Shown here: piece by piece, positions 1-8,990 of the stretch
How positions within the stretch are numbered: position 1 is the stretch's first letter
Layout: the number at the start of each line of letters is the position of its first letter
Assembly: GCA_943736015.1 (NCBI GenBank)
Contig: OX031065.1
Span: 503,501-567,500 of the forward strand
Source: Tridacna crocea
Taxonomy: Eukaryota > Mollusca > Bivalvia > Cardiida > Cardiidae
Length of the DNA stretch: 64,000 nucleotides
Reading direction: 5' to 3'
Position numbers and translations under genes: made by a program
Notes under the pieces: generated by a model
What the model was told of the DNA's origin: nothing
The model's database searches: none
Seen by the model: the letters and a program-made list of their open reading frames with translations, nothing else

Positions 1-105
1 TATTTTCTCGATCTCACAGCGGTAAGATCATTAATAAAAGACAAAGAAATCATTATACTAGACCAAGACCTCTTGATATATTTGATTGAAAAAATTGAAA
101 AATGA
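1..105 (+). CDS. 3' end of an upstream Polinton gene (partial)
   Basis: One frame is open from the left edge through 34 codons and stops with TGA at 103-105. The stop overlaps the start of the capsid gene in the string ATGATG, so the two frames share bases. The visible tail ends in LDQDLLIYLIEKIEK and is rich in Ile, Leu and charged residues. It is too short to assign. In Polintons the neighbours of the capsid gene are usually other virion or packaging genes, which is only context. The tight stop/start overlap suggests that both frames are read from one transcript. Confidence 0.45.
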   Translation, partial: YFLDLTAVRSLIKDKEIIILDQDLLIYLIEKIEK

Positions 106-1409
106 TGCAAAACGGGTCTTGTGAATGCAGTAAATCAGAACTCAATGTTCTTTCTGTACCACCTACAATGACAACAATGCAAGAAAGTCAATGGGTTGAA
201 CATTTTCCAATAGCATCTTTGACAAACAATTCACCGATAGAATTCATTATACCGCCTCAAACCGAACATTGGACAGATTTGTCACAATCGTATTTGTATA
301 TCAAATTCAAAATCGTTAAAGCCGACGGTAGTAACTTAGACGCCGGTTCAAATGTGGCACCTGTAAATAATTTCCTGCATAGTATGTTTAGCAGCATCGA
401 TTTGTATCTAAATAATAAACTAATCGGCAGTAATTCAGATACCTATCCATACAGAGCGTATATCGAAAATCTTCTGTCATATAATAGCGACAGCAAGTCT
501 ACGTTTTTGAAAGCTGGCGTACTTTGGGTTGAAGACACCACTAACCATTTCGAGACACTCAACAATGATGGGGATAATGAGGGACTAAAAGAAAGAATCG
601 GTGTAATCGCACTAAGCAAAACCGCAGAGCTTTTCGGACGATTGCATCTTGATCTATTTCAACAAGAAAAATATTTACCTAACGGAATTGAAATCAGACT
701 TAGATTAAACAGAGCTTCATCAACCTTTTGCCTTACAGGAGGTACTGCTGCACCAAATGCAAAAATTGTAATGGAAACAGTTAGTCTTCATGTACGAAAT
801 GTCGAATTGCTACCTGTTGTTGCAAATGATCTAAATCACGTTATTGCTCAGCAAAACATGAAAATTCCTATCCGCAGGGTAGAAGTAAAGACGTTTACCA
901 TCGGTGATGGTCTGCAGTCTAAAATTGAAGATCATTTGTTTCAAGGACAGCTTCCGAAACGTATTTTCATTGCAATGGTAACAAATGCTGCTTATAATGG
1001 GGGTTATGCTAACAACCCATTTTTCTTTCAACACTTTAATCTGTCAAAAATAGATGTATCATGTAATGGTCACAGTATTCATAACAGACCCTTTGAGCCT
1101 GACTTTGAAAATGGGCTGTATTTGAAATCATATTTGTCTATGTATCAGGCTGTCTCAGCCTTTGGACTCAATAAATCATTTGATATTGCCAAAGAAGACT
1201 ATGTTGGTGGATACTGTTTGTGGGGATACGATTTGACAGCTGATCAAGGCAGTGAAGAAGGTCAACTTCATCCTATAAAAACTGGAAGTCTTCGAATTGA
1301 GCTTCAATTCGCCCAAGCTCTGGCCGCAGTGATCAACGTTATTGTCTTTGCTGAATTTGACAATCAGATTGAAATCAACAGTTTGAGAGAGGTCATCACA
1401 GATTATTAA
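102..1409 (+). CDS. Polinton/Maverick major capsid-like protein
   Basis: A 435-residue intact frame of the family that invertebrate genome annotations often label F54H12.2-like, which I take to be the double-jelly-roll major capsid protein of Polinton/Maverick elements. Recognisable blocks include QWVEHFPIASL near residue 30, DLSQSYLYIKFKI near 60, VNNFLHSMFSSIDLYLNN near 87 and TYPYRAYIENLLSYN near 115. A central segment reads LFGRLHLDLFQQEKYLPNG. The protein would form virion shell capsomers and is followed in this element by a maturation protease. No frameshift or stop interrupts it, so the copy is young or under selection. Two adjacent ATG codons (102 and 105) could serve as start. Family membership is recognised from sequence memory, not from a search. 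Confidence 0.8.
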   Translation: MMQNGSCECSKSELNVLSVPPTMTTMQESQWVEHFPIASLTNNSPIEFIIPPQTEHWTDLSQSYLYIKFKIVKADGSNLDAGSNVAPVNNFLHSMFSSIDLYLNNKLIGSNSDTYPYRAYIENLLSYNSDSKSTFLKAGVLWVEDTTNHFETLNNDGDNEGLKERIGVIALSKTAELFGRLHLDLFQQEKYLPNGIEIRLRLNRASSTFCLTGGTAAPNAKIVMETVSLHVRNVELLPVVANDLNHVIAQQNMKIPIRRVEVKTFTIGDGLQSKIEDHLFQGQLPKRIFIAMVTNAAYNGGYANNPFFFQHFNLSKIDVSCNGHSIHNRPFEPDFENGLYLKSYLSMYQAVSAFGLNKSFDIAKEDYVGGYCLWGYDLTADQGSEEGQLHPIKTGSLRIELQFAQALAAVINVIVFAEFDNQIEINSLREVITDY

Positions 1410-1435
1410 CTTTTTGGAAGATACATCAGAAAAAC

Positions 1436-1451
1436 AGTCCTTTTCAGGGCT
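1436..1451 (+). terminator. Histone-type 3' stem-loop 1 after the capsid gene
   Basis: AGTCCT-TTTC-AGGGCT folds into a 6-bp stem (one G-U pair) with a TTTC loop, 27 nt after the capsid stop. It is preceded by AAAAC and followed by TAAAAAAAGAGAG, a purine run of the kind that pairs with U7 snRNA. This matches the geometry of metazoan replication-dependent histone mRNA ends. Confidence 0.75.
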
Positions 1452-1495
1452 AAAAAAAGAGAGTGTATATCGAAAGACAACTTTTTCACAAAAAC

Positions 1496-1511
1496 AGTCC
1501 TTTTCAGGGCT
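1496..1511 (+). terminator. Histone-type 3' stem-loop 2 after the capsid gene
   Basis: A second copy of AGTCCT-TTTC-AGGGCT, 60 nt after the first, with the same AAAAC leader and a TAAGGAG purine segment after it. It lies before the next gene starts at 1570, so it belongs to the same 3' region. Confidence 0.7.
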
Positions 1512-1534
1512 AAGGAGTATTGTATTGAAAAAAC

Positions 1535-1550
1535 AGTCCTTTTCAGGACT
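1535..1550 (+). terminator. Histone-type 3' stem-loop 3 after the capsid gene
   Basis: AGTCCT-TTTC-AGGACT is a perfectly paired 6-bp stem with a TTTC loop, followed by AAAAAAGAA. It differs from its two neighbours by a change (G to A in the 3' arm) that restores full Watson-Crick pairing, which argues that the fold matters. Confidence 0.7.
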
Positions 1551-1569
1551 AAAAAAGAACTAGTAAACA

Positions 1570-2031
1570 ATGTTGGGACTCAGATTTGCTATATCACTGA
1601 GAAGAGAAGCAGAGAAAGTGAAATATTCCACCTCAAAGTGTCTTTCTACTCGGAAAAATGACATTCACAACAGCTTTGAAAAACATATGATTCAAGAACT
1701 ACAAAATCTGATAGCCAGTGAAGTTCACAACCAGTGTTTTGGATGTCAAGTGGATCATCCCAGCCAAATACAGCACGAACTATGTTTATTCAAGGACAGA
1801 CAAGAACATACAGATATGTTCATAGAAAAAGCTATGATGGAATTAAATCCATACAGAATCATGGAAAAATGGTATCCTGATTTAATGGAGATGAAACTCG
1901 ATGAAAGTGACTATGTGGAAGCCTACAGATTATGGCAAAATATAAAACAAAACATTTTATCTGAAATCACGGAGTCGTGCTTACAATACTGGTGTGACAA
2001 AGTAAAACAAGTCTGGAAAGAAAGTGAATAG
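1570..2031 (+). CDS. Polinton protein of unknown function with a Cys/His motif
   Basis: A 153-residue protein between the capsid and protease genes. I do not recognise a named family. The N-terminal 45 residues are basic (LRREAEKVKY, STRKND). In the middle, CFGCQVDHPSQIQHELCL places Cys, Cys, His, His and Cys at spacings that could bind one zinc ion. The C-terminal half is predicted-helical, acidic and Trp-rich (MEKWYPDLMEMK, RLWQNIKQ, LQYWCDKVKQVW). It ends only 9 nt before the protease start, with no stem-loop or AATAAA between them, so the two are probably on one transcript. A minor virion or DNA-binding role is possible but unproven. Confidence 0.6.
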   Translation: MLGLRFAISLRREAEKVKYSTSKCLSTRKNDIHNSFEKHMIQELQNLIASEVHNQCFGCQVDHPSQIQHELCLFKDRQEHTDMFIEKAMMELNPYRIMEKWYPDLMEMKLDESDYVEAYRLWQNIKQNILSEITESCLQYWCDKVKQVWKESE

Positions 2032-2040
2032 AAAAAAGAC

Positions 2041-2544
2041 ATGATGTATACTTCTGAAATTCAATACATATTGGATCACGGAACCTGGATAAAAAATCTA
2101 CAAGCAAAAGTCTGTGCAAAAGACCAGCTACCTCGACAAAAACCCAAACATGTGAAAGCTTACATTGTGAATACAGAAAGATCAAACAGACCAGGAGAAC
2201 ATTGGGTGGCAATGATATTTGATAATAATGACAATGTACTATACTTTGATCCCTATGGACTACCACCACTTGAGCCAGAAATCATTAACTTTTTAGACAA
2301 TCATTCTTCATCGTGGAGATACAATCGACAAACTCTTCAGAGTCTACAGGGCAAAGTTTGCGGAATTTACTGTATCTTTGCATTGGATGCTGCTGCTAGA
2401 GGGTACAATATACAGAAATATCTTCAACAGAAATTCCTCTCAACGGAACACCATCGAAACGATCGAGATGTATCATTGTGGTTTAATCAACACTATGGAA
2501 TTCTATACAAGAAAATTTCAGAGACTTTCCCCCACAGACAGTGA
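2041..2544 (+). CDS. Adenain-type cysteine protease (virion maturation protease)
   Basis: A 167-residue protein with the catalytic layout of adenovirus protease / Ulp1-fold (clan CE) enzymes. His54 lies in GEHWVAMIF, Asp70 in LYFDPYG, Gln100 in RQTLQSLQ and nucleophile Cys107 in KVCGIYC. The Gln-to-Cys spacing of seven residues matches adenain. In Polintons and adenoviruses this enzyme cleaves capsid-associated precursors during assembly. All four catalytic positions are present and the frame is intact, so the enzyme could be active. It follows the 153-residue gene by 9 nt. Unlike the capsid and cassette genes, it is followed by a conventional AATAAA and not by a histone-type hairpin. Confidence 0.85.
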   Translation: MMYTSEIQYILDHGTWIKNLQAKVCAKDQLPRQKPKHVKAYIVNTERSNRPGEHWVAMIFDNNDNVLYFDPYGLPPLEPEIINFLDNHSSSWRYNRQTLQSLQGKVCGIYCIFALDAAARGYNIQKYLQQKFLSTEHHRNDRDVSLWFNQHYGILYKKISETFPHRQ

Positions 2545-2652
2545 AAAAACATAAAAAACATTTTTCAAAAATGATCTTTATTGTTAACAGTTCATTGATT
2601 ATTATGTTCATTGATGTTCATTGTAAATATGTTTATTGTTTCAGTTCTGTTC

Positions 2653-2658
2653 AATAAA
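2653..2658 (+). terminator. Polyadenylation signal AATAAA after the protease gene
   Basis: AATAAA lies 109 nt after the protease stop in an AT-rich trailer that also contains repeats of TGTTCATTG. No histone-type hairpin is present between 2544 and 2800. This transcript therefore seems to use ordinary cleavage and polyadenylation. Confidence 0.5.
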
Positions 2659-2797
2659 AAAGTTTAAAAAACAGTCGAGTTTTTCATTCTGTTTTTCCCA
2701 AGACCCCGTTTTGCTTACATTTTTCCCCAATGCTACGAGTCATAACTTTTTGCTATATTTAGCATGACAACATAGGTTTGGGGAAAAATGTATGTGC

Positions 2798-2851
2798 TTT
2801 CCGCCAGGTCCGCGCTCTTAAATTTTTCAATCCTCCTGTTAGCGTATAAAA
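2798..2851 (+). promoter_or_regulatory. Promoter of cassette 1
   Basis: TATAAAA at 2845-2851 lies 73 nt before the start codon. Upstream are CTTTCCGCCAGGTCCGCG (2798) and TCAATCCTCCTGTT (2827), both repeated before other cassettes. The ~50 nt leader (CATTCATCATTCGACTCTC) recurs in cassette 3. Confidence 0.6.
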
Positions 2852-2923
2852 ACGCCGATATTTCCCCATACATTCATCATTCGACTCTCAGCTCTCGAAC
2901 AGTTCGAAAGTTAAAAAATCAAT

Positions 2924-3244
2924 ATGGAGGAGAACAATATGGAGGAAATCAACCATCAACTGCGTGAGTCTCTGCGAGACTATCTAGATGCTGGCCAGCA
3001 ACTATTGCTACTAAACACTCAGCTCGTACAAGAGGAGGAAAAACGGCAACTACAACGTATATCGCAGCCGTACAAAGATCTCGGTGAAAGATTAGTTCAG
3101 CTATTCTTAAAGACAACACCTGACATTATTTTGGTTGATGTCAAATTTGGAAGAAAGATAACTTTCAATAACGGAGCAATGACGATCACGAAAAGAGTTG
3201 GAGTATGCCCCATCTGCCAGGCAAATTTCGGTTGTTGTCATTAG
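2924..3244 (+). CDS. Cassette 1: small coiled-coil protein with CPxC...CC tail
   Basis: A 106-residue protein of unknown function. Residues 1-70 are Glu/Gln/Leu-rich and likely form a helical coiled coil (MEEINHQLRESLRDYL, LVQEEEKRQLQRIS). Residues 70-92 look like beta strands. The C-terminus is VCPICQANFGCCH, a Cys-rich tail able to bind metal and similar to the tail of the cassette 5 protein. Two in-frame starts exist at 2924 and 2939 because ATATGGAGGA is repeated; the first is used here. The gene has its own TATA promoter and its own histone-type hairpin, so it is a free-standing transcription unit. Confidence 0.6.
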   Translation: MEENNMEEINHQLRESLRDYLDAGQQLLLLNTQLVQEEEKRQLQRISQPYKDLGERLVQLFLKTTPDIILVDVKFGRKITFNNGAMTITKRVGVCPICQANFGCCH

Positions 3245-3270
3245 AAGTGGAAAAACACAACCACAAAAAC

Positions 3271-3312
3271 AGCCCTTTTCAGGGCTAACCATTTACCAAG
3301 AAAAGATCTTTC
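3271..3312 (+). terminator. Histone-type 3' processing signal of cassette 1
   Basis: AGCCCT-TTTC-AGGGCT (3271-3286) is a perfect 6-bp stem with a TTTC loop, preceded by AAAAAC and followed by AACCA. The purine-rich CCAAGAAAAGATC lies about 10 nt downstream, where the U7-binding histone downstream element lies in animal histone genes. AATAAA at 3390-3395 could act as a backup poly(A) signal. Confidence 0.85.
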
Positions 3313-3379
3313 TTTTCAAAAACCAGCCATCCTCTAGTTTTTTCCTAACCCGAACACGAAAAATGTAACAAAGCTATGG

Positions 3380-3490
3380 ATTGGTCAACAATAAAACATT
3401 TACCGATAGAGAAATGTAACGACGTTTCTGATTGGACAACGTTAATTCAGAGGCAAAAGTAGGTCAATCCATGCTGTGAACTATATAAGG
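3380..3490 (+). promoter_or_regulatory. Promoter of cassette 2
   Basis: Two inverted CCAAT boxes (ATTGG at 3380 and 3431), the shared AGGTCAATCC motif at 3461 and a TATATAAG box at 3483-3490. The block AAAGCTATGGATTGGTCAAC is repeated before cassettes 3 and 4. Confidence 0.6.
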
Positions 3491-3527
3491 ACAATGTTTT
3501 CTCACAGGAAAACATAAATGCTTCAGT

Positions 3528-3734
3528 ATGGTTCAGATTCTTCTCTGTCCTCACTGCGGGAGCAGATGCCAGATAGAGTGCGGGAAATGCTTCACACTCC
3601 TGGACTATCTTGGACAGAAGCACAACTGTCCAGACACAGACGAGGGATTCTATGATGATGATGAAGGGTCTACAGTTTGTTGCGAGTTCTGCGGATGTGA
3701 AATCATCCCAGTAAATCGTCTAGAAGAACAGTAG
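3528..3734 (+). CDS. Cassette 2: small zinc-ribbon-like protein
   Basis: A 68-residue Cys-rich protein. CPHC (7-10), C14, CGKC (18-21), H32/C34 and a C-terminal CCEFCGC (51-57) give about ten metal ligands, enough for two small zinc sites separated by an acidic linker (DTDEGFYDDDEG). The start at 3528 has A at -3 and G at +4. An earlier ATG at 3518 in another frame has a weak context and would give a 45-residue overlapping frame ending at 3655. No named family is recognised. Small viral zinc proteins of this kind often act in transcription or host interference, but nothing here proves a role. Confidence 0.6.
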   Translation: MVQILLCPHCGSRCQIECGKCFTLLDYLGQKHNCPDTDEGFYDDDEGSTVCCEFCGCEIIPVNRLEEQ

Positions 3735-3766
3735 GGCTTGACAATTCATCAAATCCTTCTTAAAAA

Positions 3767-3812
3767 AGCCCTTTTCAGGGCTAACCATTTACCATGAAAA
3801 GATCTTTCTTTC
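3767..3812 (+). terminator. Histone-type 3' processing signal of cassette 2
   Basis: AGCCCT-TTTC-AGGGCT (3767-3782) 33 nt after the stop, then AACCATTTACCATG and AAAAGATCTTTC as the purine-rich downstream element. AATAAA follows at 3914-3919, inside the next promoter. Confidence 0.85.
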
Positions 3813-3903
3813 AAAATTGTCATTTTGTTCTCTCAAAAAACCCACAACCTAGTCAAACTCTTGTTTTTCCCAACCCGAACAAGAAATTGTAACAAAGCTA
3901 TGG

Positions 3904-4012
3904 ATTGGTCAACAATAAAACATTAACCAATAGAGAAATATATCGATGTTTCTGATTGGACAATGTTAATTCGGAGTCAAAAGTAGGTCAATCCTCCTGT
4001 TGGTGTATAAAA
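3904..4012 (+). promoter_or_regulatory. Promoter of cassette 3
   Basis: Inverted CCAAT boxes at 3904 and 3955, AGGTCAATCCTCCTGT at 3985-4000 and TATAAAA at 4006-4012. The order and spacing match cassettes 2 and 5, and the transcribed leader matches cassette 1. Confidence 0.6.
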
Positions 4013-4069
4013 GCCTGCGATATTTTCCATACATTTGTCATTCGACTCTCAGCTTTCGAATAGATCAAC

Positions 4070-4165
4070 ATGTCTTCCTTGCAGTATCAGTTTGATCATT
4101 TTGGGTACTTATTTCCTAAGATCTATCAGCTAACTCCTCATCTTGCTGGGATAAACCGGAGGTAA
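4070..4165 (+). CDS. Cassette 3: 31-residue peptide
   Basis: The first ATG after the TATA box opens a 31-codon frame (starts MSSLQYQFDHFG, ends LAGINRR) that stops with TAA at 4163. It is aromatic-rich at the N-terminus and basic at the end. It is the only frame placed where the other cassettes have their genes, between a promoter and a histone-type hairpin. It may be a genuine micropeptide, or a gene shortened by decay: the frame stops 64 nt before the hairpin. No function can be given. Confidence 0.4.
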   Translation: MSSLQYQFDHFGYLFPKIYQLTPHLAGINRR

Positions 4166-4229
4166 CGTCCACTTGGTAGTCCAGCCAGTCTCTCCAGTCT
4201 TTTCCAGTCCAGTCTTTTGTCAAAAAAAC

Positions 4230-4275
4230 AGTCCTTTTCAGGGCTACCAACTACCATGAAAAGATCTTTCTTTTC
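4230..4275 (+). terminator. Histone-type 3' processing signal of cassette 3
   Basis: AGTCCT-TTTC-AGGGCT (4230-4245) with one G-U pair, followed by ACCAACTACCATG and AAAAGATCTTTC. AATAAA lies at 4383-4388. Confidence 0.8.
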
Positions 4276-4372
4276 AAAATTGTCAAAAACTCAAAAATAG
4301 TTACAAGCCTTATCCCAGACATCCTCTAGTTTTTCCCCAACCCGAACAAGAAAAAATGTAACAAAGCTATGG

Positions 4373-4417
4373 ATTGGTCAACAATAAACATTTGTAATCA
4401 CTATTTTTCCATAAAAC
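4373..4417 (+). promoter_or_regulatory. Promoter of cassette 4
   Basis: An inverted CCAAT box at 4373 in the shared AAAGCTATGGATTGGTCAAC block and a TATA-like CATAAAA at 4410-4416. It is shorter than the other cassette promoters and lacks the AGGTCAATC motif. Confidence 0.45.
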
Positions 4418-4463
4418 TCTCATTCGCTACTCGATTATCGTAGAGCTAAGCCAATATTTTACA

Positions 4464-4604
4464 ATGTTTGGATTGACAATTATCCTCGCATTACTTTACT
4501 GGATAGAAGAAAGACAACGTATGAGACGTATCAGGCGTGAAGTTGAACATCTCATACAGATCCTAAATGCAGCAGAAAGTATGGAAAGAAAAAGGGGAGG
4601 ATAA
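4464..4604 (+). CDS. Cassette 4: 46-residue single-span membrane peptide
   Basis: ATG at 4464 opens a 46-codon frame. Residues 2-13 (FGLTIILALLYW) are hydrophobic and could anchor in or insert across a membrane. Residues 14-46 are strongly basic and helical (RQRMRRIRREVEHL). This layout, a short N-terminal membrane segment with a charged cytosolic tail, is common among small viral membrane proteins. No family is recognised. It sits between a promoter and a histone-type hairpin, like its neighbours. Confidence 0.5.
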   Translation: MFGLTIILALLYWIEERQRMRRIRREVEHLIQILNAAESMERKRGG

Positions 4605-4629
4605 AAAAAGTGTACTCTACACAAAAAAC

Positions 4630-4672
4630 AGCCCTTTTCAGGGCTACCAACTACCAAGAAAAGATATTTCTT
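4630..4672 (+). terminator. Histone-type 3' processing signal of cassette 4
   Basis: Perfect AGCCCT-TTTC-AGGGCT (4630-4645) with the ACCAA flank, then CTACCAAGAAAAGATATTTC as the downstream element. AATAAA at 4737-4742 follows. Confidence 0.85.
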
Positions 4673-4775
4673 TCAAATTTTGTCAAGTATCAGTAACACT
4701 CAAATAGCACAGCTCTTTTTTCCTTCATAGAGCAAGAATAAACATTGTCCAATACAGAAATATAACGTTAATTCT

Positions 4776-4869
4776 GATTGGACAACGTTAATTCTGGGGG
4801 TGCTTTCTGCCAGGAACGCGCTCTTAATTCAGAGTCAAAGTAGGTCAATCCTCCTGTAAAGCTATAAAA
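4776..4869 (+). promoter_or_regulatory. Promoter of cassette 5
   Basis: GATTGGACAACGTTAATTC (4776), CTTTCTGCCAGGAACGCG (4803), AGGTCAATCCTCCTGT (4842) and TATAAAA (4863-4869), 39 nt before the start codon. It combines the upstream blocks seen separately before cassettes 1, 2 and 3. Confidence 0.6.
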
Positions 4870-4907
4870 GCCGGCTCTATTTCATTATTGTCATTTTCAT
4901 TTCAACG

Positions 4908-5312
4908 ATGGAAGACCTTAAGAAGACGATGAAAAATCTCATGAGATCGGTAGAGACCCTCTCATTAAAGTTAGAGAAGGCGGAGCGTCAACTGCGAAGG
5001 ATTGAGGATGATAGGAGGCAGATAGAAAGACAACCTGTCTTCGGGGAGAGATTGCTGTTTATGGGATGGGACTTTTGGGAGTTAGCCCAAATCCCGCCCC
5101 AACCAGCTCCACCACCACCACCACCACCGCAGTCAGCTCCACCAGCAACGGGGAGGAAAGAGTTTGTCATCCCAGCAACGGAGTGCTGGGATGACGATAA
5201 CGAGCCGCCGTTCTCGTTGAAGTTTGACTTGGACGAGCAGGAGCTTAGAAGACTGAGGAGGCGGACAGCAAGCAGCTGTCCTGCTTGCAGAAAAGTTGGA
5301 GGTTGTGCATAA
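4908..5312 (+). CDS. Cassette 5: coiled-coil / proline-rich protein with CPAC tail
   Basis: A 134-residue protein in three parts. Residues 1-45 are a heptad-like coiled coil with basic and acidic faces (ETLSLKLEKAERQLRR). Residues 62-86 are proline-rich (PPQPAPPPPPPPQ). Residues 90-134 include acidic DDDNEPPFSLKFDLDEQ, a basic RRLRRRT stretch and the tail SSCPACRKVGGCA. The CPxC...GC tail resembles that of cassette 1, suggesting that the two genes are diverged relatives or share a binding partner. An oligomeric scaffold or regulatory protein is plausible. No family assignment is possible by eye. Confidence 0.6.
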   Translation: MEDLKKTMKNLMRSVETLSLKLEKAERQLRRIEDDRRQIERQPVFGERLLFMGWDFWELAQIPPQPAPPPPPPPQSAPPATGRKEFVIPATECWDDDNEPPFSLKFDLDEQELRRLRRRTASSCPACRKVGGCA

Positions 5313-5335
5313 AAACACAGCCTCCAAAGCAAAAC

Positions 5336-5376
5336 AGCCCTTTTCAGGGCTACCATTTACCAAGAAAAGATCTATC
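5336..5376 (+). terminator. Histone-type 3' processing signal of cassette 5
   Basis: Perfect AGCCCT-TTTC-AGGGCT (5336-5351), preceded by CAAAAC and followed by ACCATTTACCAAGAAAAGATC. It lies 23 nt after the stop. No AATAAA follows within about 300 nt, unlike the other cassettes. Confidence 0.85.
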
Positions 5377-5439
5377 TATCTCTAAAATTGTCAATCTTCC
5401 TTCTCAAATGAGTTACATTCCAAGGCTCCAAAGAGTAAG

Positions 5440-5680
5440 AAAACTCAGACCCACAGTACCCAGAGTGCTTGCCCACAGTACCCAGAGTGCCTACCCAAAA
5501 AAAAAAAAAGATGGCGGACAAAATGACGGCGAAAACCAAAAAATTACCCAAATCGACCAAAAAATTACCGGATTCGACCGGAATGTACCCAGAGTGCCTA
5601 CCCTAGGGTAGGCACTCTGGGTACAAAACCCCCTCTGGGTAGCTAGACTGGGTACACTGTACCCAGGCTAGCTTCCATTA
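5440..5680. repeat. Candidate right-terminal region of the Polinton
   Basis: ACCCAGAGTGC occurs at least three times directly (about 5459, 5482, 5588) and again inverted. A perfect 40-bp palindrome spans 5585-5624 with its centre at 5604/5605, each arm reading GTACCCAGAGTGCCTACCCT. A second small inverted pair follows (CTGGGTACACTGTACCCAG, near 5649). An A-run followed by GATGGCGGACAAAATG lies between them. Subterminal repeats are common at Polinton ends, but the matching left end is outside the window, so the boundary is inferred. Confidence 0.4.
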
Positions 5681-5844
5681 CTACTAATATGTATTTTTAA
5701 ATAACAATTTAAGCTAAATGAAATAAGTGCAAAGAGTTACACTTCCTTGGCTGTTTTTATCTAGGATAGACAGCATCGAAACGGGAATTATAAATGTATG
5801 CCAAGGATGTGAAGTTTTACCCGAGGACACACATGAAAAATTAG

Positions 5845-5937
5845 AGGCTTTCAACAAGGTTTGAACCTGAAACTTCCATTTTGCGAGTTCGACACTTTAC
5901 CACCGAGTTGCGCAGGAACCCCGCTGAGGTTTACCTC
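5845..5937 (-). repeat. tRNA-derived SINE fragment
   Basis: On the minus strand a box A-like GCAACTCGGTGGTAAAGTG is followed by a box B-like GGTTCAAACC with tRNA-like spacing. No complete cloverleaf is evident, so this is a SINE remnant and not a tRNA gene. An MITE core fragment (5943-6022) follows. Confidence 0.4.
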
Positions 5938-6117
5938 GATAGAAAAAAAATGTAGGAAAAAAGAAAATGCTGGTAACTAGCCTTTTCTCTTCTTACAACC
6001 GTGTTTTCAAGTTATTTATTCCATATGACTGATAGAAAACAGGTTTGTTTCGGTATGATTTTAAGATTTCCTGCTAGTGATATAACAATACAGCTTGTTG
6101 AAATAATGTACACTCAC

Positions 6118-6664: not shown

Positions 6665-6916
6665 TTAACCCTTTCTCAAACTGCAAATTTTGGACCAGAC
6701 CAAATTGAGAGCATTTTGCAAAAGACAAATTAACAGTTGCTAATAAGATGATTTTTCTATATGGTAGGGTAGAAAACATTGTGGGAAGCCTTTTGAAAAC
6801 ATTGAGGGAAAAGGAGAAAATGCTGGTTACCAGCATTTTCTCCTTTTCCCTCAATGTTTTCAAAAGGCTTCTATTCCTGACCCGTAAAAACCAGGGATTG
6901 TTTGGGAAAGGGTTAA
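6665..6916 (+). mobile_element. TTAA-flanked palindromic MITE (piggyBac-like)
   Basis: Begins TTAACCCTTTCTCAAA and ends TTTGGGAAAGGGTTAA. The core is a long hairpin centred on AAATGCTGGTTACCAGCATTTT. TTAA duplicated at both ends and CCC/GGG termini are the piggyBac signature. Confidence 0.75.
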
Positions 6917-7460: not shown

Positions 7461-8990
7461 TATACGCCCGTCGAAGACGGGACGTATTATGGGATCACCC
7501 GTGGCGGGCGGGCGGGCGGGCGGGCGGCGTCCAGTTCTTTGTCCGGAGCATATCTCCAAAACTATACAAGCTAGGGTTATGAAATTTCATGGGTGGATAG
7601 ATCTCATCGAGGCGGAGTGCAGTGCACAGGAATCATAACTCTTGCTCACTTAATTTTTGAGTTATTGCCCTTTGTTGTTTTTCATACTTGAATTTTGTCC
7701 GGAGCATATCTCCAAAACTATACTAGCTAGGGTTATGAAATTTCATGGGTGGATAGATCTCATCGAGGGGGAGTGCAGTGCACAAGAATCATAACTCTTG
7801 CTTGCTTAATTTTTGAGTTATTGCCCTTTGTTGTTTTTCATACTTGAATTTTGTCCGGAGCATATCTCCAAAACTATAGTAGCTAGGGTTATGAAATTTC
7901 ATGGGTGGATAGATCTCATTCAGGGGGAGTGCAGTGCACAAGAATCATAACTCTTGCTTGTTTAATTTTTGAGTTATTGCCCTTTGTTGTTTTTCATACT
8001 TGAATTTTGTCCGGAGCATATCTCCAAAATTATAGTAGCTAGGGTTATGAAATTTCATGGGTGGATAGATCTCACTGAGGGGGAGTGCAGTGCACAGGAA
8101 TCATAACTCTTGCTCGCTTAATTTTTGAGTTATTGCCCTTTGTCGTTTTTTATACTTGAATTTTGTCCGGTGAATATCTCCAAAACTATACTAGCTAGGG
8201 TTATGAAATTTCATGGGTGGATAGATCTCACCGAGGCGGAGTGCAGTGCACAGGAATCATAACTCTTGCTTGCTTAATTTTTGAGTTATTACCCTTTGTC
8301 GTTTTTCATACTTGATTTTTGTCCGAAGCATATCACCAATACTATACTACCCAGGGTTATGAAATTTCATGGGTGGATAGATCTCATGGATTGGGGGTGC
8401 AGTGCACTTAAATCACAACTCTTGCTTACTTAATTTTTGAGTTATTGCCCTTTGTTGTTTTTCATACTTGAATTTTGTCCGGAGCATATCTCCAAAACTA
8501 TAGTAGCTAGGGTTATGAAATTTCATGGGTATATAGATCTCACTGAGGGGGAGTGCAGTGCACAAGAATCATAACTCTTGCTTTCTTAATTTTTCAGTTA
8601 TTGCCCTTTGTCATTTTTTATACTTGAATTTTGTCCGGTGAATATCTCCAAAACTATACTAGCTAGGGTTATGAAATTTCATGGGTGGATAGATCTCACC
8701 GAGGCGGAGTGCAGTGCACAGGAATCATAACTCTTGCTTGCTTAATTTTTGAGTTATTACCCTTTGTCGTTTTTCATACTTGATTTTTGTCAGAAGCATA
8801 TCTCTAAAACTATACTAGTTAGGGTTATGAAATTTCATTGGTGGATAGATCTCATCAAGGGGGAGTGCAGTGCACTGAAATCACAACTCTTGCTTGCTTA
8901 ATTTTTGAGTTATTGCCCTTTGTTGTTTTTCATACTTGAATTTTGTCTGGTGCATGCCCCAGCTTTACAACTTGGGGTAAGACGGGCGTA
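7461..8990. mobile_element. Element with nine exact 156-bp tandem units and short inverted ends (Pearl-like)
   Basis: The ends are TATACGCCCGTC (7461) and GACGGGCGTA (8981-8990). After a lead-in with CGTCGAAGACG and a GGGC run, the GTCCGGAGCATATCTCC landmark recurs at 7541, 7697, 7853, 8009, 8165, 8321, 8477, 8633, 8789 and 8945. That is nine units of exactly 156 bp with no indel between landmarks. Bivalve Pearl-type elements also combine short terminal sequences with a core of ~160-bp tandem repeats, so that is the likeliest class. No protein is encoded. Confidence 0.7.

Follow-up and report, generated by a model that had tools for sequence, protein, structure and literature searches.

The 3' ends of replication-dependent histone genes, with the histone 3' UTR stem-loop (Rfam RF00032) and a U7-dependent element, and the Polinton/Maverick elements and adintoviruses are the described systems closest to the locus analysed here. 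Adomaviruses and MELD viruses are a further point of reference; 'Histoid' proteins are reported in some of them in the available excerpt of PMC11071296. In the accessible portions of open-licence PMC papers, no link was found between Polintons or other viruses and histone-type 3' ends.

The locus lies in a stretch of 64 kb from Tridacna crocea, called the window below. What it contains is the right arm of one copy of a Polinton/adintovirus-type element that occurs in many copies. The left end of this copy is outside the window.

Core genes of the element

The preliminary description had called the element Polinton-like, and the gene content agrees: sister copies encode PolB and an integrase with a chromodomain, and the window encodes an adenovirus-type protease and a capsid protein whose model is double-jelly-roll-like. 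Sister copy L041 has a DNA_pol_B_2 match (E 1.8e-44), the polymerase of the window copy falling outside the window, and sister copy L042 has an rve integrase (E 2e-14) with a Chromo domain (E 1.2e-7). No packaging ATPase was matched at E<=0.01, among 10 sister ORFs from 12 kb. The core genes of the right arm are:

102..1409, + strand: major capsid protein ORF, 435 aa, predicted double-jelly-roll-like fold (homologues, AlphaFold2, Foldseek)
1570..2031, + strand: 153-aa ORF without a stem-loop on its 3' side (ORF list, pattern scan)
2041..2544, + strand: adenovirus-type cysteine protease, 167 aa (Pfam PF00770 Peptidase_C5, E 4.1e-6)

The capsid protein has 614 homologues at E<=1e-3, and the animal names among the best 120 of the 614 are of bivalves only. 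Its AlphaFold2 model (pLDDT 84, pTM 0.85) gave Foldseek matches to the capsid proteins of iridovirus, PBCV-1, Sputnik and mavirus, and the modelled fold is double-jelly-roll-like. The protease gene is followed by AATAAA at 2653 and by no stem-loop. Searches of PHROGs with six proteins gave no match, and no histone family was matched among the element genes scanned.

Stem-loops in the window

There are eight exact matches to the pattern AGYCCTTTTCAGGRCT, all on the + strand, starting at 1436, 1496, 1535, 3271, 3767, 4230, 4630 and 5336. Elsewhere in the 64 kb the pattern is absent even at up to two mismatches, and shuffled versions of the window held a mean of 0.13 matches and a maximum of 1. 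The eight hairpins of the form AGYCCT-TTTC-AGGRCT that had been described at these sites are thus all exact, with 0.13 expected by chance. Each has a perfect 6-bp stem and a UUUC loop of 4 nt, and folding energies of -5.5 to -8.2 kcal/mol were computed for the three types of sequence.

The hairpins lie 26, 86 and 125 nt past the stop codon of the capsid gene and 26, 32, 64, 25 and 23 nt past the stops of small genes 1–5. Their earlier placement after the capsid gene and five small genes holds as to position, although the third small gene, with 31 codons and a 64-nt spacer, is the least certain. An A-rich 5' flank is found at all eight. The likeness to histone hairpins that had been noted in stem length, loop and 5' flank therefore applies throughout, but the ACCA 3' flank is confined to the cassette hairpins, where it is present at 5 of 5 (two as AACCA); 0 of the 3 capsid hairpins have it, and AAAA or AAGG stands directly after their stems. 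The capsid hairpins are:

1436..1451, + strand: capsid stem-loop 1, AGTCCT-TTTC-AGGGCT, 26 nt past the stop, without ACCA (RF00032 15.3 bits, E 4.2)
1496..1511, + strand: capsid stem-loop 2 (exact pattern; absent from the cmscan matches at E<=10)
1535..1550, + strand: capsid stem-loop 3, AGTCCT-TTTC-AGGACT, U-A at pair 3 (RF00032 22.5 bits)

A GAAAG core stands 20 nt past the stem of capsid stem-loop 1 in the window copy. Across copies it was found at the first capsid hairpin only, 18–20 nt past the stem in 8 of the 10 checked.

The best-scoring Rfam matches in positions 1–6000 are to RF00032, which was matched at 7 of the 8 hairpins; none scored above 30.7 bits, short of the curated cut-off (34 bits). 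In the rest of the window none of 121 Rfam matches was to RF00032. Inverted repeats elsewhere in the window produced spurious Rfam miRNA matches. Of the 67 Rfam matches (E<=1) over 20 sister stretches, 64 were to RF00032, and six sister sites exceeded the curated cut-off, at 35.1–35.8 bits. Of 102 sites, 100 begin the stem with an A-U pair and none with the G-C of the Rfam consensus. Pair 3 is C-G at 67 sites, U-G at 23, U-A at 10 and unpaired at 2, the last two being likely chance matches.

The five cassettes

Downstream of the protease gene, the five small genes form cassettes of promoter, ORF, stem-loop and purine block:

2845..2883, + strand: cassette 1 promoter, TATAAAA and TCATTCG, preceded by a TCAATCC box (motif scan, cassette alignment)
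2924..3244, + strand: cassette 1 ORF, 106 aa, C-terminal end CPICQANFGCCH (intact homologue P0121, 60% identical; sister copies)
3271..3286, + strand: cassette 1 histone-type stem-loop (RF00032 30.7 bits, E 7.9e-6)
3299..3309, + strand: cassette 1 candidate U7-type downstream element (motif)
3528..3734, + strand: cassette 2 ORF, 68 aa, cysteine-rich, TATA at 3482 (sister copies)
3767..3782, + strand: cassette 2 histone-type stem-loop (RF00032 30.7 bits, E 7.4e-6)
3795..3805, + strand: cassette 2 candidate U7-type element (motif)
4070..4165, + strand: cassette 3 ORF, 31 aa, the least certain gene, TATA at 4006 and TCATTCG at 4038 (sister copies)
4230..4245, + strand: cassette 3 histone-type stem-loop, G-U at pair 3 (RF00032 21.4 bits, E 0.022)
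4257..4267, + strand: cassette 3 candidate U7-type element (motif)
4464..4604, + strand: cassette 4 ORF, 46 aa, no consensus TATA found upstream (sister copies)
4630..4645, + strand: cassette 4 histone-type stem-loop (RF00032 30.0 bits, E 1.4e-5)
4657..4667, + strand: cassette 4 candidate U7-type element (motif)
4863..4869, + strand: cassette 5 TATA box (motif scan, cassette alignment)
4908..5312, + strand: cassette 5 ORF, 134 aa, C-terminal end CPACRKVGGCA (homologue P0122, 51% identical; sister copies)
5336..5351, + strand: cassette 5 histone-type stem-loop (RF00032 29.9 bits, E 1.5e-5)
5363..5373, + strand: cassette 5 candidate U7-type element (motif)

By our own reading, the cassette 4 protein appears to have a hydrophobic N terminus. 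The block AAGAAAAGA/ATGAAAAGA, which had been pointed out at the position of a U7-binding downstream element, is indeed present after 5 of 5 cassette hairpins, 10–11 nt past the stem; the form [AT]GAAAAGAT[AC]T has no other occurrence on either strand of the window. TCATTCG presumably resembles the histone cap-site motif. The wider pattern [CT]CATTC[AG] was counted 21 times per strand over the 64 kb.

Alignment shows the cassettes to be paralogues, in the promoter as well as in the 3' flank. Over the 55 nt upstream of the A tract they are 27–30% identical; identity is 92% over the 5 nt leading into the stem and 97% within the stem-loop. Paralogous duplication alone was rejected as an account of this pattern – high identity does not reach beyond the hairpin, the A tract on its 5' side and the block that follows it.

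Distribution in the genome and in viral databases

The hairpin pattern has 397 matches in the 1.05-Gb host genome, compared with 3 for a reversed control pattern. Sister copies were picked for having at least one exact hairpin, and the conservation of the hairpin among them is therefore inflated. Absent or unpaired hairpins in other copies had been named as evidence that would count against the original proposal; this was not the outcome in the fetched copies, all picked for at least one exact hairpin. Next to intact ORFs the hairpin is in the sense orientation, usually 15–39 nt past the stop; this holds for seven gene types and includes the divergent gene pairs L032–L034. Two of the seven are in the left arm, at the opposite end from the cassettes, and have a 3' end of the same type. 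The right-arm layout recurs, with variation, in 10 fetched right arms (L021–L030).

A GAAA(A)G core follows the stem by 12–13 nt in 57 of the 62 exact hairpins that have (A)ACC next to them. Among 49 stem-loop genes, the TCAATCC box accompanies 34 of 34 detected TATA boxes; the PolB and integrase stretches sampled have neither the hairpin nor the box. The signals thus keep their spacing and are tied to one promoter type across the fetched copies and gene types. In four cassette genes, diversity between copies is 0.02–0.12 in the purine block versus 0.11–0.32 at 50–120 nt past the stem. The first 10 nt past the stem, which hold ACCA, vary by 0.02–0.31 in the cassettes, partly through insertion of A. 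Some hairpins in L024 and L028 are damaged or without a purine block, and a divergent family (L035–L037) keeps the hairpin with CCGAAAGAGC as its purine block at unchanged spacing.

A capsid-profile search of the genome contigs found two more distant capsid relatives, L001 (37%) and L002 (43%), neither of which shows such a hairpin. The lone match L038/L043 was considered as a host histone gene and rejected: the 90-codon ORF oriented towards its hairpin has no Pfam match, and the reading frame looks decayed.

In IMG/VR, the capsid profile found no relatives, and neither the exact hairpin with ANCA nor the canonical GGYYCTTTTCAGRRCCACCA occurs in any contig. The looser ACAGYYCTTTTCAGRRCTA occurs in 10 contigs, about the number expected by chance on our own arithmetic. 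None of the 10 fits AGYCCTTTTCAGGRCT, only one (L007) has ACCA past the stem, and a GAAA(A)G core is absent from the following 35 nt in all of them.

Proposed 3'-end formation

It is quite likely that the compact promoter, short ORF, stem-loop, ACCA and purine element of these small, uninterrupted genes make up a cassette built like a replication-dependent histone gene and working as follows. Host SLBP would bind the AGYCCU-UUUC-AGGRCU hairpin, and host U7 snRNP would pair with the GAAAAGA core 12–13 nt past the stem. CPSF73 would cut just 3' of ACCA, leaving viral mRNAs without poly(A). Their output would track SLBP and so S phase, a time at which the element could also replicate its own DNA. 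The three-hairpin capsid array, without ACCA, probably binds SLBP and may be processed differently. Together, the hairpins, the spacing of the purine core and the shared TCAATCC–TATA promoter make SLBP/U7 processing of the element's messages a likely inference. Borrowing of host histone mRNA processing had been proposed from the outset; the proposal is borne out in part, as regards cis-elements of histone type (RF00032 matches, six sister sites above the cut-off, a core spacing that fits U7), and does not extend to all genes, the sampled PolB and integrase stretches being hairpin-free.

The hairpins might instead be SLBP-binding or stabilising 3' UTR elements in ordinary polyadenylated transcripts that end at a downstream AATAAA, with the cut after ACCA absent or minor. 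This is unlikely, although AATAAA does occur at 3390, 3914, 4383 and 4737, 107–153 nt from the start of 4 of the 5 cassette hairpins, as well as after the protease gene, and the capsid hairpins lack ACCA. The four sites fall within aligned sequence that precedes the following cassette, the last cassette has no AATAAA or ATTAAA from its hairpin to 6000, and (A)ACC with a purine core at fixed spacing would be left unexplained.

It is improbable that the hairpin and purine block are a DNA or RNA signal of the element's own (to terminate transcription, bind a protein or direct packaging) that duplication of the cassettes has spread and that is convergent on the histone type. The paralogy of the cassettes would suit such a signal, as would the additional hairpin copy that L021 and L026 carry inside a coding sequence. 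However, RF00032 is the match among 4227 Rfam families, with some sites above the curated cut-off; histone signals are matched in the loop, the A-rich 5' flank, ACCA and the spacing of the purine core; and the sense orientation soon after the stop of intact ORFs holds in the divergent pairs as well. An origin without function, in inverted repeats arisen by chance or in mere tandem duplication, which the other inverted repeats of the window might bring to mind, is most improbable; the counts (8 versus 0.13; 397 versus 3) already contradict it, as does a block that changes little next to more distant sequence that has diverged.

It is probable, though less than firmly so, that the element lineage placed a whole gene class under the pathway of replication-dependent histones, both arms having a histone-style promoter and 3' end of the element's own, the accessory and partly the capsid mRNAs being non-polyadenylated and timed with those of host histones. 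If so, a non-histone gene class would use SLBP/U7 3'-end formation, a DNA virus would have a route for coupling expression to S phase, and poly(A)-selected RNA-seq would miss such transcripts. A multicopy virus-like element with histone-type 3' signals would be an exception worth seeking, and with 397 hairpin matches in one genome, access of non-histone genes to the histone pathway is directly testable in a natural system.

Comparison with known systems

With the histone 3' UTR stem-loop and U7-dependent element the locus shares the 6-bp stem, the UUUC loop and the A-rich 5' flank, and with histone genes ACCA (in the cassettes), a purine block 12–13 nt past the stem and short, uninterrupted genes. 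It differs in having genes that belong to a virus-like element, in a first pair that is A-U where the RF00032 consensus has G-C, and in capsid hairpins that lack ACCA and are grouped by three (in one case a single hairpin, in another four).

PolB, an rve integrase with a chromodomain, an adenovirus-type protease and a double-jelly-roll-like capsid protein are shared with Polinton/Maverick elements and adintoviruses. As points of difference, the element has small genes at both ends, TCAATCC–TATA promoters and histone-type 3' ends, a combination for which no description was found in the available parts of the open-licence PMC literature.

Adomaviruses and MELD viruses are neighbours in capsid fold by structure comparison and also carry accessory small genes. 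Their link to histones, in the excerpt of PMC11071296, is one of protein similarity and not of histone mRNA 3' ends.

The element and its genes

A Polinton/adintovirus-type element has inserted into an animal chromosome here, and its right arm occupies the first 5.4–5.6 kb of the window. The arm encodes:

102–1409, major capsid protein
1570–2031, 153-aa ORF
2041–2544, protease (Peptidase_C5, E 4.1e-6)
2845–5376, five small cassettes

The capsid protein has 614 homologues, and every animal named among the best 120 of the 614 is a bivalve (Mercenaria, Crassostrea, Ostrea, Saccostrea), which makes a bivalve host likely. Its predicted model (pLDDT 84, pTM 0.85) matches iridovirus, PBCV-1, Sputnik and mavirus capsid proteins, and its neighbours among viral predictions include a bracovirus protein (33% identity), adomavirus LO7 and an entry labelled as a MELD virus. 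PolB (E 1.8e-44) and an rve integrase (E 2e-14) with a chromodomain (E 1.2e-7) were found in pieces of two sister copies. Two contigs with more distant capsid relatives, L001 and L002, are in bacterial MAGs (a Bathymodiolus symbiont; Breoghania sp.), most likely as animal DNA contamination.

The 106-aa and 134-aa cassette proteins each have one outside homologue (P0121, intact, 60% identity; P0122, 51% identity). The cysteine-rich C terminus is kept in both, as CLIC...GCC in P0121 and CPAC...GC in P0122. It is uncertain whether the 31-codon ORF of cassette 3 is a real gene. Close to where the element's right end is presumed to lie, a near-perfect palindrome at 5583–5626 (TACCCAGAGTGCCTACCC...) and further copies of its motif were seen; the palindrome is possibly part of a terminal repeat.

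Elsewhere in the window, inverted repeats within 6001–64000 (e.g. GGAGAAAATGCTGGTTACCAGCATTTTCTCC near 6820) score sub-threshold as miRNA in Rfam and are probably MITE-like elements. A tandem array in host sequence, with a repeat of roughly 150–160 bp (TTTTGTCCGGAGCATATCTCCAAAACTAT...), was spotted by eye at 7480–8940.

Stem-loops in the window and in sister copies

The preliminary description had placed eight AGYCCT-TTTC-AGGRCT hairpins after the capsid gene (1436, 1496, 1535) and the cassettes (3271, 3767, 4230, 4630, 5336). All are exact at these positions, and the 64 kb holds no other match with up to two mismatches. When the whole Rfam library was run on window 1–6000, the four best-scoring matches were to RF00032, the histone 3' stem-loop, all at cassette sites (29.9–30.7 bits, E about 1e-5). 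Three further RF00032 matches scored 15.3–22.5 bits, and no Rfam match at E<=10 was listed for the capsid hairpin at 1496. None of the window's hairpins reached the curated RF00032 cut-off of 34 bits. In the control, window 6001–64000, there were 121 Rfam matches at E<=10, none to RF00032. Across the 62,920 nt of 20 sister stretches, RF00032 made up 64 of the 67 Rfam matches at E<=1, and six sites were above the cut-off (35.1–35.8 bits). The stem is followed by ACCCA at these six, whereas the tail at the window's cassette sites is ACCA or AACCA.

A scan of the genome (1.049 Gb, 31 contigs) found the pattern 397 times (178 + 219); the reversed control pattern occurred 2 + 1 times. Twenty-five stretches were fetched, chosen from the first 100 of the 397 matches listed. 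The window's layout was found again, with variation, in other copies of the element, the ten right-arm stretches L021–L030. Capsid hairpin number varies (one in L024, four in L029), a cassette is missing from each of L023 and L027, and some ORFs, though not many, are interrupted or continue into a longer frame; L028 was cut without its capsid end and L025 stops after the second cassette. L031, a more decayed arm, has three exact hairpins. In genes with an identified ORF, the distance from stop to hairpin was, by gene type, 25–26 nt for the capsid (6 sister copies), 15–34 nt for the 106-aa gene (n=10, window included), 29–33 nt for the 68-aa gene (n=11), 24–27 nt for the 45/46-aa gene (n=8) and 23–38 nt for the 134-aa type (n=10). 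The 31-codon cassette is less regularly kept.

The left end of the element adds to the preliminary description: two further genes in divergent orientation (100–107 aa and 192–196 aa) each finish in this hairpin followed by the purine block (seen in L032, L033 and L034, and for the larger gene also in L039). The observation of the hairpins holds, and they are found repeatedly among the copies fetched from this genome. L001 and L002, both of which look decayed, lack the hairpin, so elements of this kind do not carry it generally.

In a more divergent family (L035–L037), a 96-aa gene related to the last cassette gene ends in the same hairpin but has a different downstream block, CCGAAAGAGC. The gene and hairpin occur twice, inverted, 3.6 kb apart in L035 and 8.5 kb apart in L036/L037, which suggests non-autonomous derivatives with gene-bearing inverted repeats. 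In L043 (C1:60092200–60096200), a lone gene ends in the same hairpin with another downstream block (ACCAAGAAAGTTTC); its 90-aa ORF has no Pfam match and the gene is apparently decayed. An extra hairpin, without the downstream purine core, lies inside the coding stretch of the last cassette protein in two copies (L021:3895–3910; L026, minus strand, 4075), as if hairpin sequence had been inserted or converted.

Conservation and the downstream purine element

With up to three mismatches, the window and 25 loci gave 102 sites, one counted twice (L038/L043 overlap) and two resembling chance matches. The first pair of the stem is A-U at 100 of these; pair 3 is C-G at 67, U-G at 23 and U-A at 10. Among the window's cassettes, mean pairwise identity is 0.27–0.30 over the 55 nt preceding the A tract, 0.92 over the last 5 nt ahead of the stem, and 0.97 within the stem-loop itself. 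Between copies, diversity in four cassette genes is 0–0.06 in the stem-loop, a conservation inflated because copies were picked by exact hairpin match. It is 0.02–0.31 in the next 10 nt (partly A insertion), and 0.02–0.12 in the purine block, compared with 0.11–0.32 at 50–120 nt past the stem.

Sixty-two exact hairpins have (A)ACC directly after them. In 57 of these a GAAA(A)G core starts 12 or 13 nt past the stem; in the other five it starts at 5 or 11 nt (two) or is absent (three). The first capsid hairpin lacks ACCA; in eight of ten copies a GAAAG core lies 18–20 nt past its stem. No core was found within 34 nt of the window's other capsid hairpins, nor of most of those in the copies.

Promoters

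Promoters were surveyed for 49 stem-loop genes of at least 40 codons for which 150 nt or more of upstream sequence was available. A TATA motif was found for 34; each of these had TCAATCC no more than 45 nt upstream of the motif, and TCATT lay 15–60 nt downstream in 24. In random 170-mers of window 6001–64000, the frequencies were 10.5% for TATA, 0% for box plus TATA and 0.8% for TATA plus TCATT. The 15 genes without TATA include most 45/46-aa genes, the L035–L037 family, and genes whose longest frame begins before the likely start codon. In the 12 kb of PolB and integrase sequence sampled (L041, L042), plain TATA motifs are present, but neither TCAATCC nor a hairpin with up to three mismatches was found. 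Among the genes sampled, one promoter type therefore accompanies one type of 3' end, and together they mark a gene class at the element's two ends.

Proposed histone-type 3'-end processing

Several observations count against processing. AATAAA lies 107–153 nt past the hairpin start at four of the five cassettes, within what aligns as the upstream region of the following cassette; the A-U first pair differs from the Rfam consensus; and the more distant relatives L001 and L002 have no hairpin. The anatomy of the cassettes is consistent with processing after ACCA, and SLBP/U7-type processing, an inferred mechanism, is the best reading of these sequences. The capsid array would be expected to bind SLBP, with cleavage uncertain. 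According to a study of a lucinid clam (PMC6210712), every histone mRNA of that clam carries the stem-loop and only some have purine-rich elements nearby, so bivalve hosts probably have the histone pathway.
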